A stretch of 64,000 nt of DNA from a virus, in IMG/VR virus record IMGVR_UViG_3300036827_000091, positions 1 through 64,000 of that record; one strand, written 5' to 3'. The position numbers and the translations under genes are program-made. The notes beneath the pieces are model-generated. The model saw only the letters and a program-made list of their open reading frames with translations, did no database searches and was not told where the DNA came from. Positions 27,080 through 53,586 of this stretch are shown in pieces (position 1 is the first letter of the stretch; the number at the start of each line of letters is the position of its first letter).

Positions 27080-27295
27080 ATGACCCAGCCGGACCGGCCC
27101 GTCACCCCCAACCGCAGCGCCGGCCGGATCGAGGACGCCCTGTGGCAGCCGTTCCTGGCCAAAGCCCGCGCCGAGGGCCTGACCAACACCGATGCGTTCC
27201 GGCTGCTGATCCGCGAGTGGACCAGCTCGCCGGATGGCCCTGCCCGCAGGGGGCAGGGCCGCCGGTCACGCTTGCGTGGTGCCCGTCCTGGTTAG
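27080..27295 (+). CDS. small ribbon-helix-helix-like DNA-binding protein
   Basis: A 71-residue protein with a core at residues 12-48 (RIEDALWQPFLAKARAEG, then TNTDAFRLLIREW) that resembles the strand-helix-helix of CopG/RHH proteins, and a basic C-terminal tail. It is the only rightward gene between the HutC gene and 47.7 kb. Its divergent position and the dyad in its promoter suggest an autoregulated repressor. It ends in a four-base convergent overlap with the next gene. Confidence 0.6.
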   Translation: MTQPDRPVTPNRSAGRIEDALWQPFLAKARAEGLTNTDAFRLLIREWTSSPDGPARRGQGRRSRLRGARPG

Positions 27296-27750
27296 CGCGA
27301 TGACGCTCGCCCTGCCTTCAAGGCCGGGTACGGGCAGTAAGTCGAAATCCCAAAGCCCGGCCCCTTCCGCCACTGCTCGCACCCCTGCACCAGAACATAG
27401 GGGCTATAGCATGTGGACCTTGATCGGTCCTTGTACGCCGTTTTGAAATTGCCGTAATTGTAGTGAGCACTGCCGCTAGCCCGGTCCACGCAGCGCGCCC
27501 GCGCTCGTAGCTGCCAGCCGTTTGCATTGATCGTCCACCAGTCCTGGAAGGTTGCGCTTGTCGTTGTCGGGTCGGCCTTCGTCCAGCTGATGCACTCCGT
27601 GGTGGAGCTACACGACTTGCGATTAGGGGCGTGGTTCCGGGCGATCATCGCCCCGTGCCCGGACGCGGTAGCCGGGGCGGCGAACGCCACGGCGGCGACT
27701 AGCAGCACGGCAGCGCCAAGGACGCTGGCCATCCATTTTCTTGCGATCAT
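27292..27750 (-). CDS. secreted Cys-containing protein
   Basis: A 152-residue protein. ATG 27750 begins a clear signal peptide (MIARKWMASVLGAAVLLVAAVAFA, read in parts, cleavage near APATA). The mature part is basic and aromatic with six Cys (KSCSSTTECISW; RCVDR; STCYSPYVLVQGCEQW) that could form disulfides. It lies next to the Ltp-type lipoprotein gene and may act with it at the host surface, perhaps in superinfection exclusion. That link is inference. Confidence 0.72.
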   Translation of the reverse strand: MIARKWMASVLGAAVLLVAAVAFAAPATASGHGAMIARNHAPNRKSCSSTTECISWTKADPTTTSATFQDWWTINANGWQLRARARCVDRASGSAHYNYGNFKTAYKDRSRSTCYSPYVLVQGCEQWRKGPGFGISTYCPYPALKAGRASSR

Positions 27751-27812
27751 GTGCGATCCTTCCTGTAAGCCCGGCTCAGCTGATCGGGCCGGGCGGTCTG
27801 ATGATCCCAGCT

Positions 27813-27842
27813 GGCGGGCGCTCACGGGAACGAGCGCCCGTC
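27813..27842 (-). terminator. stem-loop after lipoprotein gene
   Basis: A perfect 9-bp inverted repeat, CGGGCGCTC (27815-27823) with GAGCGCCCG (27832-27840), extendable with a wobble pair, sits 10-40 bases past the stop of the gene ending at 27852. There is no U-run, as is usual in actinobacterial intrinsic terminators. Confidence 0.5.
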
Positions 27843-27851
27843 AGCCGGGCG

Positions 27852-28355
27852 TCACATTCCCCGCATCGCCGCCCTGGCCCCGTAGCGGGCCTGCGCCGGG
27901 GTGAACTGATTGCCATACGGCGATTCCAGCTGCTGCACCAGGCCGCTGTAGGAGAACCCCTGCCCGTCGCGCAGGTACCCTTTGGCGCTGATCACGGCCT
28001 GCTTGTTCCAGTTGACCCTGATATGCGCCAGCGCCCACGTGGCCAGCCGACGAGAAAACCCTTCCCCGTAGGACGATGTCAGCTGGTCCAGCAGCCCGCG
28101 CCGGGAAAACCCCTGCCCGTCGGACAAGTACGACTTGGCTGAGTCGAGCGCCTGCTGCTGTGCGGTGGTCAGCTTCGGGGCAGCCGGTGCTGTCGTGGCC
28201 GGGGCTGACGTGCACGGCCAGCATTTCGCGGCCGGGGTGACAGCCCTCCCCGAGGCGGCAGGATGGGCGGGCGGCGTGCTGCCCCCGCAGGCTGCCGCGC
28301 CGGCGAGCAAGCCGGTGACGATGGCCGCTGCCGCGGCTTTACGGATGATTCGCAT
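27852..28355 (-). CDS. Ltp-type superinfection exclusion lipoprotein
   Basis: A 167-residue lipoprotein: basic start, hydrophobic run and lipobox Cys23 (GLLAGAAAC), then a Pro/Ala linker. Two tandem Ltp repeats follow (about residues 65-110 and 113-155), each with the AKSYL...GFS..GL..QL.S.YG..F pattern of PF07553. In Streptococcus phage TP-J34 such a prophage lipoprotein blocks DNA injection by related phages, apparently by acting on the tape measure. Expected role: host-surface exclusion of competing phages during lysogeny. Confidence 0.85.
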   Translation of the reverse strand: MRIIRKAAAAAIVTGLLAGAAACGGSTPPAHPAASGRAVTPAAKCWPCTSAPATTAPAAPKLTTAQQQALDSAKSYLSDGQGFSRRGLLDQLTSSYGEGFSRRLATWALAHIRVNWNKQAVISAKGYLRDGQGFSYSGLVQQLESPYGNQFTPAQARYGARAAMRGM

Positions 28356-29316: not shown

Positions 29317-29370
29317 TGTGCTTACAGCTTACCGGCTGGCCTGCATTCTGTCAACAGTGCAGGCCAGCCG
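29317..29370 (-). promoter_or_regulatory. promoter P1 with operator dyad and 13-bp inverted repeat
   Basis: On the minus strand: TTGACA (29354-29349), 17 bp, TAAGCT (29331-29326), overlapping TGTAAGCACA (29326-29317) at the expected start point. A perfect 13-bp inverted repeat (29333-29345 with 29358-29370) flanks the -35. It drives the gene starting at 29294. Confidence 0.82.
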
Positions 29371-30222: not shown

Positions 30223-30273
30223 TGTGCCTACAGTCTAGTGACTGGCCTGGAATCTGTCAACACCTCAGGCCAG
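30223..30273 (-). promoter_or_regulatory. promoter P2 with operator dyad
   Basis: Minus strand: TTGACA (30260-30255), 17 bp, TAGACT (30237-30232), overlapping TGTAGGCACA (30232-30223). A 7-bp inverted repeat, CTGGCCT with AGGCCAG (30242-30248, 30267-30273), flanks the -35. Confidence 0.8.
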
Positions 30274-31162: not shown

Positions 31163-31215
31163 TGTGACTACAGTCTACCGGCTGGCCCGCATTCTGTCAA
31201 CACCCCAGGCCAGCC
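31163..31215 (-). promoter_or_regulatory. promoter P3 with operator dyad and inverted repeat
   Basis: Minus strand: TTGACA (31200-31195), 17 bp, TAGACT (31177-31172), overlapping TGTAGTCACA (31172-31163). GGCTGGCC (31180-31187) and GGCCAGCC (31208-31215) flank the -35. Confidence 0.8.
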
Positions 31216-31773: not shown

Positions 31774-31825
31774 TCTGCTGACAGCTTACAGCCCTGCAGC
31801 GCATTCTGTCAACACTGCAGGGCTG
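31774..31825 (-). promoter_or_regulatory. promoter P4 with 10-bp inverted repeat
   Basis: Minus strand: TTGACA (31812-31807), 18 bp, TAAGCT (31788-31783). The dyad at the start point is degenerate (TGTCAGCAGA). A perfect inverted repeat, CAGCCCTGCA with TGCAGGGCTG (31789-31798, 31816-31825), flanks the -35. Confidence 0.75.
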
Positions 31826-33876: not shown

Positions 33877-34189
33877 CACCCCTGGTGATCCGCTTGTTCT
33901 GTTCCACAGACTGGTACGCCTCATACAGCGAGGTGGTCAGCCCGCTGTGCAGCACCCGGCCGGTGCCGTAGTCGCGGGTCCGCCAGGCGAAGCCGGTGCG
34001 CTCGATCTCCACCGAGCCGGCCCAGGTGCCGAAGTTCCAGAACACCCACTGCCAGTGGCCGGGCGCGCCGTGCAGCTGCCAGCGCAACGGCGCGTCCCGC
34101 CCGGCGTGCACCCGGGCCATCGACTCGGCCCAGGCCGCCGCGGCGGCTGAGCGGTCCCAGTTCTCCCCGGTTAGCGGGTCATATGTCAT
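33851..34189 (-). CDS. hypothetical protein whose end overlaps promoter P5
   Basis: A 112-residue aromatic protein (APGHWQWVFWNFGTWAGSVE). Its last 10 residues, including GVDRM, are encoded by the -35 region of P5, and its TAA is part of the P5 -10. It is the last gene of a four-gene run (35136 to 33851). Function unknown. Confidence 0.62.
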   Translation of the reverse strand: MTYDPLTGENWDRSAAAAAWAESMARVHAGRDAPLRWQLHGAPGHWQWVFWNFGTWAGSVEIERTGFAWRTRDYGTGRVLHSGLTTSLYEAYQSVEQNKRITRGVDRMPDAG

Positions 34190-34608: not shown

Positions 34609-34964
34609 GGCTTCACCTGCCGCCAGCTGGGCGCGCCGTGGCCTTTGGGTGACACGTCTTCGATCACATGCTGCGCCCGGAGGCTGGCCACGATGTCGCG
34701 CACCGCGGTGCGGCTGACGCCGGACGCGGCGGCGAGCTGGCTGTTGTTGCAGGACCGGCCGGCCAGCGCGCCGATCGCCTGGTACACGGACACGGTCTTC
34801 CAGTCGGCCAGCCACACCTTCACGTAGCTGCCCATGTCCCGGGCGAACGCGGCCATCTCATCGGCGTGCGGCTTAGCCGAGTACACGCCCACCGCCTCCA
34901 CCTTGCCGCCGTCCGCGGGGGCCTTGTCCATGATTTTCACGAACCACCCGTTGCCGATCTTCAT
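34605..34964 (-). CDS. winged-helix DNA-binding protein
   Basis: A 119-residue protein. The N-terminal half is a mixed alpha/beta segment (VKIMDKAPADGGKVEAVGVY). Residues about 70-110 form a helix-turn-helix (CNNSQLAAASGVSRTAVRDIVASL) with a wing (HVIEDV). It is a plausible regulator of this accessory region and could be a reader of the repeated operators, though nothing links it to them directly. Confidence 0.65.
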   Translation of the reverse strand: MKIGNGWFVKIMDKAPADGGKVEAVGVYSAKPHADEMAAFARDMGSYVKVWLADWKTVSVYQAIGALAGRSCNNSQLAAASGVSRTAVRDIVASLRAQHVIEDVSPKGHGAPSWRQVKP

Positions 34965-34971
34965 GACTAAA

Positions 34972-35136
34972 TCAGTCCCTGTCCACGTATCCAGTGGGCA
35001 CGATGTAGGCGATCACGGTTCCCTCGCGGGTGACCGGGGTGGTCACGTATGCGCCGTCGGTGGCTGCCTCAGCGGCCTCGGCAAACCGCTCACCAAGCCC
35101 GGCCAGGTCCATGTCAGTGATCTCGATCGGGTCCAT
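34972..35136 (-). CDS. small acidic protein, first gene after structured leader
   Basis: A 54-residue protein beginning MDPIEITDMDLAGLGERF, with a beta-helix-beta look reminiscent of small Phd-like antitoxins, but no toxin partner is evident. It follows the long non-coding leader 35137-35509 and is the first coding sequence downstream of P6. GAGGAAGG precedes the ATG. Confidence 0.55.
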   Translation of the reverse strand: MDPIEITDMDLAGLGERFAEAAEAATDGAYVTTPVTREGTVIAYIVPTGYVDRD

Positions 35137-35509
35137 GTCCTGCCTTCCTCTGCCTAGTGTCTTGCTTGTGTGGTGCTGCACTCCCACAGGCTCCGGTAGT
35201 CCGGGGCGGTGTCGTCGGGGTTTGGCTGTCCCGCTGAGCCGCTCACCCGCTTGCCGGGGCTGTGGTAAGACGTGCTTTCCAGGTCCCGGCGTGGGGTTGA
35301 CGGGGCACCCGACCAGCCCACCCGGGACCTGCTGGCCGTCCAGACTCGCGCAGGGGCTTCCTGCGCACCTCATAATCACTCACCGGATCGCCATCTGTGC
35401 TCACCGGCTACTCGGCGCGGAGCCCGGGTCCGGGGGGTTCCTACGGCGACAGATCGCCGCGGCTGGTCCCTGGCCCGGGTTGTCCCGGGCTCCGCTGTCT
35501 TGCTGTTGT
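35137..35509 (-). ncRNA. structured non-coding leader or small RNA
   Basis: This 373-nt stretch has no credible gene but lies just downstream of strong promoter P6. It contains several exact inverted repeats: 12 bp (35417-35428 with 35484-35495), 6 bp (35444-35449 with 35454-35459), 7 bp (35348-35354 with 35360-35366), and a 14-bp helix with one bulge (35281-35295 with 35317-35330). A local hairpin, CCCGGG 35474-35479 with 35484-35489, competes with the 12-bp helix, so two folds are possible. It could be an independent RNA or a regulatory 5' leader of the 54-residue gene. I recognise no known riboswitch or tRNA. Confidence 0.5.
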
Positions 35510-35544
35510 ACTTACAGCTTAGCGCCTAGTGTCTATTCTGTCAA
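35507..35544 (-). promoter_or_regulatory. promoter P6 with TGTAAGTACA operator
   Basis: Minus strand: TTGACA (35544-35539), 17 bp, TAAGCT (35521-35516), overlapping TGTAAGTACA (35516-35507). The TAA of the -10 is also the stop of the upstream membrane-protein gene. A hairpin CCCCTG/CAGGGG (35547-35552, 35560-35565) sits just upstream. Confidence 0.82.
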
Positions 35545-35749
35545 CACCCCTGGCCTGCTCAGGGGTTGCGGCCCACAGCCAGATGGCCCGTGCCATCGCG
35601 CCCATGCCGGTCACGACGAAAATCAGCAGAACAGCCAGCCAGGCGTAGGCGCGGGCATTCCATGCGTGGCCGATGAAGATCACCGGCACCAGGCACAGTG
35701 TCATGGCCGCCCAGGACGCTGCCATCCAGCGGACCACGTTGTCAGGCAT
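35519..35749 (-). CDS. two-helix membrane protein overlapping promoter P6
   Basis: A 76-residue protein with membrane helices at about residues 10-28 and 36-58. Its C-terminus (ARGVDRIDTRR) is encoded by the P6 -35 and spacer, and its TAA lies in the -10. The same GVDR sequence ends the protein at 33851-34189 because both read through a TGTTGACAG box. Possibly an exclusion or membrane-stress protein; no family. Confidence 0.62.
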   Translation of the reverse strand: MPDNVVRWMAASWAAMTLCLVPVIFIGHAWNARAYAWLAVLLIFVVTGMGAMARAIWLWAATPEQARGVDRIDTRR

Positions 35750-35954
35750 GCGGGATCACCAGCCCCGGGTCAGTCGGCCCGGTCAGCTCCCGCATGCCCT
35801 CCATGATCTCGTCCCGCAGGCGCATGGCCTCGTCGTAGTGGTCCTGGTCGCGGTAGCGGACGTGGCTGCCTGCCCGGCCGTCGCGCACGTGCCCGGCGAT
35901 CTCCGCCGTGGCCCCGTCGATCCGGTGGTTGCCGGTGACCCTGATGCCGGCCAT
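35742..35954 (-). CDS. small hypothetical protein
   Basis: A 70-residue charged protein (AGIRVTGNHRIDGATAEIAG; DHYDEAMRLRDEIMEGM), starting at ATG 35954 in a TGATG overlap. It is helical at the C-terminus. Second gene behind P7. Confidence 0.58.
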   Translation of the reverse strand: MAGIRVTGNHRIDGATAEIAGHVRDGRAGSHVRYRDQDHYDEAMRLRDEIMEGMRELTGPTDPGLVIPHA

Positions 35955-36265
35955 CACGCGGCCCGCCGTACCGCGGGCAGCACCCAGTCGTGGCCGCCCA
36001 GGCCGGGCACGCCGGACAGCGCCCAGCCCATCCAGGCGCGGGTGTCCCACACCTGGCGCGGCGTGGTGCGCTTCGGCTCGCTAATGTCTTTCACCGGGTC
36101 CGGCGGGGGCTCGCCCGCCATGTTCAGGGTGGCCCGCCTTGCCCAGATGTCCACCTGCTGCCGGGTGACCTGCCGGCCGTCCGGCCAGGACAGCCGCTGG
36201 TTCAGCACCGTGGCCACCACCGCGTATCCGCCGAGTGGCGCTGCTTTCCTTGGCCTGCCGCTCAT
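35954..36265 (-). CDS. small helix-turn-helix protein, AlpA/MerR-like
   Basis: A 103-residue protein. Residues 10-50 (GGYAVVATVLNQRL; GRQVTRQQVDIWARRAT) resemble the short helix-turn-helix of phage AlpA or excisionase-type proteins, followed by a Pro-rich linker and an aromatic C-terminus. First gene behind P7. It may regulate or assist recombination; DNA binding is inferred. Confidence 0.6.
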   Translation of the reverse strand: MSGRPRKAAPLGGYAVVATVLNQRLSWPDGRQVTRQQVDIWARRATLNMAGEPPPDPVKDISEPKRTTPRQVWDTRAWMGWALSGVPGLGGHDWVLPAVRRAA

Positions 36266-36309
36266 CGTCCTGCCTCCTGCCTGTTGCCTTCTGCTCGCCT
36301 GTCTACGCC

Positions 36310-36347
36310 AGTATCAGCGGCGATTCGTATTCTGTCAACATCGCCGG
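36310..36347 (-). promoter_or_regulatory. promoter P7
   Basis: Minus strand: TTGACA (36338-36333), 17 bp, GATACT (36315-36310). CGGCGAT and ATCGCCG form a 7-bp inverted repeat around the -35. The start-point dyad is poorly conserved here. It follows directly after the terminator of the ArdC gene. Confidence 0.72.
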
Positions 36348-36348
36348 T

Positions 36349-36381
36349 AGGCCCGGCCCCCCCGTGAGGGGAGCCGGGCCT
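36349..36381 (-). terminator. terminator of the ArdC-like gene
   Basis: AGGCCCGGC (36349-36357) pairs perfectly with GCCGGGCCT (36373-36381), with further C:G pairs inside, seven bases after the ArdC stop. No U-run follows. Promoter P7 begins within a few bases, making a terminator-promoter boundary. Confidence 0.7.
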
Positions 36382-36387
36382 CAGCGG

Positions 36388-53103: not shown

Positions 53104-53400
53104 GAATCGCACCTCAAAAACGGGATGATCATGAAACGAGGTAGTCATGGTGAGACTACAGGGTTCAAAGGATTTGGGAGGATTCTGGAAGATTCTAGGG
53201 GATTCTAGGATCAGTGAGAGCATGTTGCGACCAAAGTGCGAAAACGGGATGATCATGGTTAAAAAGTGCGAAGCTCTGACCTGCGGTTATGCCCCTATTT
53301 CACACTTTTACACTTTTAACATCCTCTCCGCGTAAGAGAGAGAGAGAGAGAGTATAGGAGTAAGGGGTAGGGGAAACTGCGAAAACGTGAAATGAGGGCA
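53104..53400. other. candidate replication origin: AT-rich DNA with iterons
   Basis: This gene-free stretch has much lower GC than its surroundings and a dense set of repeats. There are three perfect-frame 10-bp units starting GATTCT (53181-53210) plus a degenerate fourth at 53171-53180. AAAACGGGATGATCATG occurs at 53117-53133 and 53241-53257, AAAGTGCGAA at 53233 and 53263, ACACTTTT twice in tandem at 53302-53317, and (AG)9 at 53335-53352. Iterons in helical phase beside AT-rich DNA, directly after the replication genes, is the usual appearance of an origin. Confidence 0.6.
53335..53352 (+). repeat. (AG)9 dinucleotide repeat
   Basis: Eighteen bases of alternating A and G at the edge of the AT-rich segment; all-purine on one strand, so it may form unusual DNA structure or be slippage-prone. 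Confidence 0.9.
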
Positions 53401-53438
53401 TGAGCTGAGGATGGATAAGGAATGATGGTAGGCTGCTG

Positions 53439-53450
53439 GTGTACGTACAC
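53439..53450. promoter_or_regulatory. GTGTACGTACAC palindrome
   Basis: A perfect 12-bp palindrome, one of the TGTACGTACA family, 136 bases before the gene at 53587. A -10-like TAGGCT lies just upstream (53429-53434). The rest of 53401-53586 shows no gene I can support, only two AGGCAGGAGGCAG stretches near the next start. Confidence 0.55.
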
Positions 53451-53586
53451 GAGCAGGATCGCAGGCAAACCATGGCGATGACCATGGCTGGCAAGGGGGA
53501 ACTCGGCGCGCCGTGCCGAGGCCCATCAGGCAGGAGGCAGGGCTGTGACAACTTTCGGGTCCAGGTTCTGAGGCAGGAGGCAGCAG

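Follow-up and report, generated by a model that had tools for sequence, protein, structure and literature searches.

Non-coding RNAs and repeated leaders in comparable phage systems

In L5, D29, and StarStuff, the early promoter Pleft gives rise to an abundant, stable non-coding RNA of ~500 nt, which lies at the genome end, is similar in the three phages, and was seen by RNA-seq and Northern blot (PMC5712189). About 90% of the Pleft transcript terminates ahead of the early genes; it is ORF-free and toxic when cloned (PMC5712189). In cluster K mycobacteriophages, start-associated and extended start-associated sequences are found at gene starts (PMC3203893). GC-rich hairpins lacking a U-tract (I-shaped) have been described as the common form of terminator in mycobacteria (PMC12288462).

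The locus considered here belongs to an uncultured phage with a GC content of ~69%; the window analyzed comprises bases 1-64000 of its 64,576-bp IMG/VR virus record. The phage encodes a family A DNA polymerase as well as helicase- and exonuclease-like genes, and the codon model delineates a block of small minus-strand genes at ~25.7-47.6 kb. With the polymerase as a bait, IMG/VR yielded ten relatives, the closest found, all of them contigs of uncultured viruses with 45-56% polymerase identity. The host is probably actinobacterial, given the composition and the phages that have the nearest polymerases; a scan of bacterial genomes retrieved neither host nor prophage relatives.

The stretch behind promoter P6 resembles the Pleft RNA in being ORF-free and in its place, right after a promoter and before the genes served; the two are also similar in length (370 vs ~500 nt). 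However, the Pleft RNA is supported by RNA-seq and Northern blot, whereas the P6 stretch is a sequence prediction for which no relative was found: blastn against 50,697 phage records gave no match to the Pleft loci and, with 72,556 plasmid records included, no DNA relative of any kind. Cluster K phages share with this genome a short repeated leader at gene starts and inverted repeats upstream of some genes, a likeness by resemblance only, as the sequence is different, a promoter of the sigma70-like type is part of the repeated unit here, and the arms of the inverted repeats vary in sequence among copies. With the I-shaped terminators, the locus has in common a GC-rich hairpin without a U-tract; those of mycobacteria are found no more than 50 bp past a stop codon, whereas the 12-bp helix found here follows a promoter and its inner arm is interrupted.

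A leader split behind promoter P6

The preliminary description placed the stretch directly downstream of P6, a strong-looking promoter, which proved correct (GTTGACA-N17-TAAGCT, 35545-35516). P6 is one of eight minus-strand sister promoters, which have in common GTTGACAGAAT (GTTGACAGATT at 30261) followed by a spacer; a -10 box of the TARRCT type is present in seven of the eight. Seven promoters are directly followed by an undivided, purine-rich leader of ~35 nt (e.g., TGTGATCACAAGACAACAGGCAGAGGGAGCAGGC-ATG at 33877), and in six of these seven sisters an ATG start is reached within about 33-47 nt. The remaining one (37321) has a plausible start, GTG or ATG, at a similar distance, its exact position being uncertain. 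Behind P6, the leader begins as GTAAGTACAACAGCAAGACA but is then interrupted; the sequence CACAAGCAAGACACTAGGCAGAGGAAGGCAGGAC-ATG, its second half, follows only after ~340 nt, in front of the 54-residue gene. The stretch thus runs from the P6 start region to the ribosome-binding site of that gene (Table 1). This split of the leader is a new observation, absent from the preliminary description.

Table 1. Features in and around the P6 stretch, in window coordinates
Feature	Position	Strand	Details
54-residue gene	34972..35136	-	would be served by the leader; orphan; codon model positive
Leader end with ribosome-binding region	35137..35171	-	CACAAGCAAGACACTAGGCAGAGGAAGGCAGGAC; resembles second half of sister leaders
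Weak coding-like stretch	35172..35285	-	possible gene remnant; frame of ORF 35154-35321
Long bulged helix	35270..35341	-	predicted fold; 10+5 bp, CGGG-loop-CCCG cap
7-bp hairpin	35348..35366	-	predicted fold; GCGCAGG-AAGCC-CCTGCGC
5' domain	35412..35500	-	best-folding part; 12-bp perfect helix closes an internal arm; pair probabilities 0.93-1.0
Leader start	35496..35515	-	GTAAGTACAACAGCAAGACA; resembles first half of sister leaders
Promoter P6	35516..35545	-	sigma70-like; GTTGACA-N17-TAAGCT, also GTTGACAGAAT-N13-TAAGCT; pattern at eight minus-strand sites
7-bp hairpin	35547..35567	-	ACCCCTG-AGCAGGC-CAGGGGT; just upstream of the -35 box
Promoter inverted repeats	29333-29370, 30242-30273, 31180-31215, 31789-31825, 36318-36346	-	perfect, 7-13 bp

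Both leader halves contain the direct repeat AGCAAGACA, matching over 14 nt at 86% with a spacing of 338. The P6 spacer is also connected with the leader end by AGACACTAGGC, a further repeat of 11 nt, which has little weight because repeats of this length appear in 27 of 500 shuffles. In view of the leader halves at P6 and before the 54-residue gene, the simplest description is that ~340 nt of extra sequence, flanked by AGCAAGACA, would be located inside the standard leader, or between two copies of it. A transposon was considered and rejected: 9-bp direct repeats are present, but terminal inverted repeats were not seen by eye. An exact-pattern scan for the promoter matched one locus, in a chance-like manner, and no second promoter-like element was found within the stretch.

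Some of the promoters have an additional peculiarity. Perfect inverted repeats of 7-13 bp bracket the -35 box with their arms in five of the eight, on the minus strand (post hoc binomial 3e-4 at a 6 bp threshold), and the arm sequence varies between promoters; such repeats are likewise present in one of the relatives, L005, at 13707 and 16864 (6 and 7 bp). They could represent a terminator hairpin that belongs to the gene upstream and sits inside the promoter that follows. The hairpin adjoining P6 (35547..35567) is a possible end signal of its upstream gene, weakly supported given P=0.048 against random positions. Another strong hairpin, AGGCCCGGC...GCCGGGCCT (36266-36387, minus strand; z -4.8 at 36281), is situated just upstream of the promoter at 36339.

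Coding potential and predicted fold

A codon model trained on the genes of this phage called no gene in 35137-35518 (382 nt, minus strand), which falls between the 54-residue gene and a 76-residue gene (35519-35749) of the same strand. Codon scores are around zero or negative in nearly all frames, compared with +0.5 to +1.1 for the neighbors, the exception being one weakly positive stretch (35285-35172). The claim that this is the longest gene-free stretch holds within the minus-strand block; in the whole window, 53104-53586 is longer (483 nt). The latter region appears less GC-rich by eye, carries a palindrome (53433-53456) and direct repeats (AAAACGGGATGATCATG in two copies; AAAGTGCGAA in three, one of them at 90%), and is a candidate replication origin or operator region.

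As IMG/VR baits, the 54-residue and 119-residue neighbors retrieved no relatives, both downstream genes being orphans, and neither did the Sak4-like gene nor ArdC. By eye, the 54-residue protein looks like a Phd-type antitoxin (a helix, then strands), for which databases gave no support. The predicted structures of the two neighbor proteins (pLDDT 60 and 44) are too uncertain for use, so the Phd-like identity stays a guess.

Rfam returned no match at the gathering threshold and a tRNA/tmRNA search was negative, in agreement with the earlier statement that the region corresponds to no tRNA or riboswitch; at relaxed thresholds (E up to 5), Rfam gave chance matches to vertebrate families only. 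In the ten IMG/VR relatives, the stretch is absent by DNA search and covariance model, also at the syntenic place where readable, and in those that keep the gene 35954-36265, different small genes come next with no similar stretch. When covariance models were built from the single sequence for the two main helices, only the window itself scored above chance, and an exact-pattern scan for the 5' hairpin had no matches. As no relative carries the segment, a working RNA is plausible rather than established.

The helices reported initially were all recovered: a perfect 12-bp helix (arms 35417-35428/35484-35495), a bulged helix (10-bp arms 35280-35289/35322-35331, a bulge, then five more pairs and the cap), and a 7-bp hairpin. 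Calculated over the full transcript, the partition function assigns pair probabilities of ~0.9-1 to both long helices and to the hairpin. Only one of 300 shuffles contained a perfect helix of at least 12 bp (gap up to 60), but 10 of the 333 equally sized windows of the genome did. Against shuffled sequence, folding of the complete region scores z -3.0 for the minus strand and -1.9 for the plus strand. Among minus-strand windows of the same size it ranks just 8th of 158 (7 of the 157 others fold equally well or better), since windows of this size in the genome already average z -0.8 (sd 1.2). Locally notable folding is confined to the first 90 nt: 35401-35500, containing the 5' domain, has z -4.5 (minus) and -2.2 (plus) and is about 10th of 3,196 hundred-base windows. 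These scores and rankings indicate that the fold is real as a prediction, though a moderate statistical outlier concentrated in those 90 nt. No canonical intrinsic terminator (GC-rich hairpin plus T-run) was found in 34900-35620. Within the window, local folding is strongest at 27761-27860, for each of the two strands (z -6.4 and -5.4); this segment spans the intergenic gap between the minus-strand genes 27852-28355 and 27292-27750 and is probably a terminator hairpin.

Instead of the three CCCGGG copies initially counted, four are present (35321, 35423, 35474, 35484), out of 82 in the genome. The two exclusive pairings proposed for them do exist as alternatives but are unbalanced (-54.0 vs -45.1 kcal/mol): the fold with the 12-bp helix is better by 8.9 kcal/mol than the alternative hairpin, whose pairing has an equilibrium probability of ~0. 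As a local structure that would fold first, this hairpin could form only transiently, during transcription. Predicted accessibility of the ribosome-binding region is about equal with and without the 5' domain.

Possible functions of the P6 stretch

We tentatively favor the interpretation that the stretch is a structured untranslated leader, which would reduce or time the expression of the 54-residue gene and may also accumulate as a short RNA. That P6 is followed by a non-coding 5' leader with a stable fold is supported by codon statistics, by position, and by the folding of the single sequence; of the earlier proposal of a leader for the 54-residue gene, these attributes were retained and the switch function was not. 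The stretch is non-coding in character, has leader halves at both ends, and possesses a strand-specific folding potential. The leader interpretation is preferred because of the negative codon scores, the position from P6 to the ribosome-binding site, the stronger folding of the transcribed strand, the short distance at which sister promoters reach their starts, and the precedents of the Pleft RNA and of U-tract-less terminators in mycobacteria. It is weakened by the failure to find a homologous sequence or any sign of conservation, by the 7 of 157 same-strand windows that fold at least equally well, by the lack of a canonical terminator, and by the ten related phages that, within the reach of their records, do without this sequence.

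Such a leader would have arisen when ~340 nt of extra sequence came to sit within the ~35-nt leader typical of the sister promoters, and host RNA polymerase would transcribe it from P6 as an untranslated 5' leader. As the polymerase leaves P6, the GC-rich 12-bp 5' domain and later the bulged helix would fold, the most likely effect being lower read-through and/or protection of the 5' end. The outcome would be a short stable leader RNA, with the 54-residue gene and those following it expressed less. That the stretch is transcribed, that the RNA terminates or is stable, and that it regulates anything are inferences; by analogy, the element is possibly an attenuator or a stable leader RNA like the Pleft transcript of L5/D29. 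A lineage-specific, new phage leader RNA acting in cis or trans during early infection, outside the described families, is an unlikely variant.

The main rival, possible but less favored, is a decayed gene or a neutral insert: P6 may formerly have driven another small gene, or foreign DNA may have entered the leader, the remnant being non-functional and its folding merely reflecting 69% GC. The leader-like sequence at both ends with the AGCAAGACA repeat, the absence of the stretch in relatives, fold z-scores that are merely in the top 5% of genome windows, and the weak coding-like stretch, which stops in frame shortly before the next ribosome-binding site, are all compatible with this explanation. 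It is opposed by the strand specificity of the 5' domain, which is among the ten best-folding windows, and by the tight packing of phages of this kind, from which 340 useless bases should vanish unless recent; besides, neither terminal inverted repeats nor any relative of the supposed lost gene came to light.

An unrecognized small protein (ORF 35154-35321 or 35243-35404, or a frameshifted combination) is improbable. Although the codon score of 35285-35172 was equalled in only 21 of 1000 shuffles, it amounts to 18.5 vs 43 for the 54-residue gene, and no ribosome-binding site was seen by eye near the possible starts. No protein family or relative was found for it; with a weak codon signal and protein database matches at chance level only, the protein reading was rejected. 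Still less probable is a DNA-level element (operator, recombination or replication site), in which the 12-bp and 10-bp perfect inverted repeats would act as double-stranded DNA: there are no iterons, an AT-rich core was not seen (GC 0.686), one strand folds better than the other, and 53104-53586 is the better origin candidate by composition and repeats.

A ligand- or protein-sensing switch or a trans-acting anti-defence RNA, both suggested by the preliminary description, is very improbable despite the alternative CCCGGG pairings: a switch would have exclusive structures of comparable stability, one of them affecting expression, whereas the pairings differ by ~9 kcal/mol, the ribosome-binding region is about equally accessible either way, no terminator-like element, Rfam match (as for a riboswitch), or conserved core was found, and nothing supports an anti-defence role, the nearest anti-restriction-like gene (ArdC) being several genes upstream. 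The original observation was a fair one, overstated as a switch or anti-defence RNA.

If transcribed, the untranslated leader would extend the experimentally known, unexplained habit of some actinobacterial phages of producing long stable non-coding RNAs right behind early promoters, and the sister promoters without the insert constitute built-in controls.
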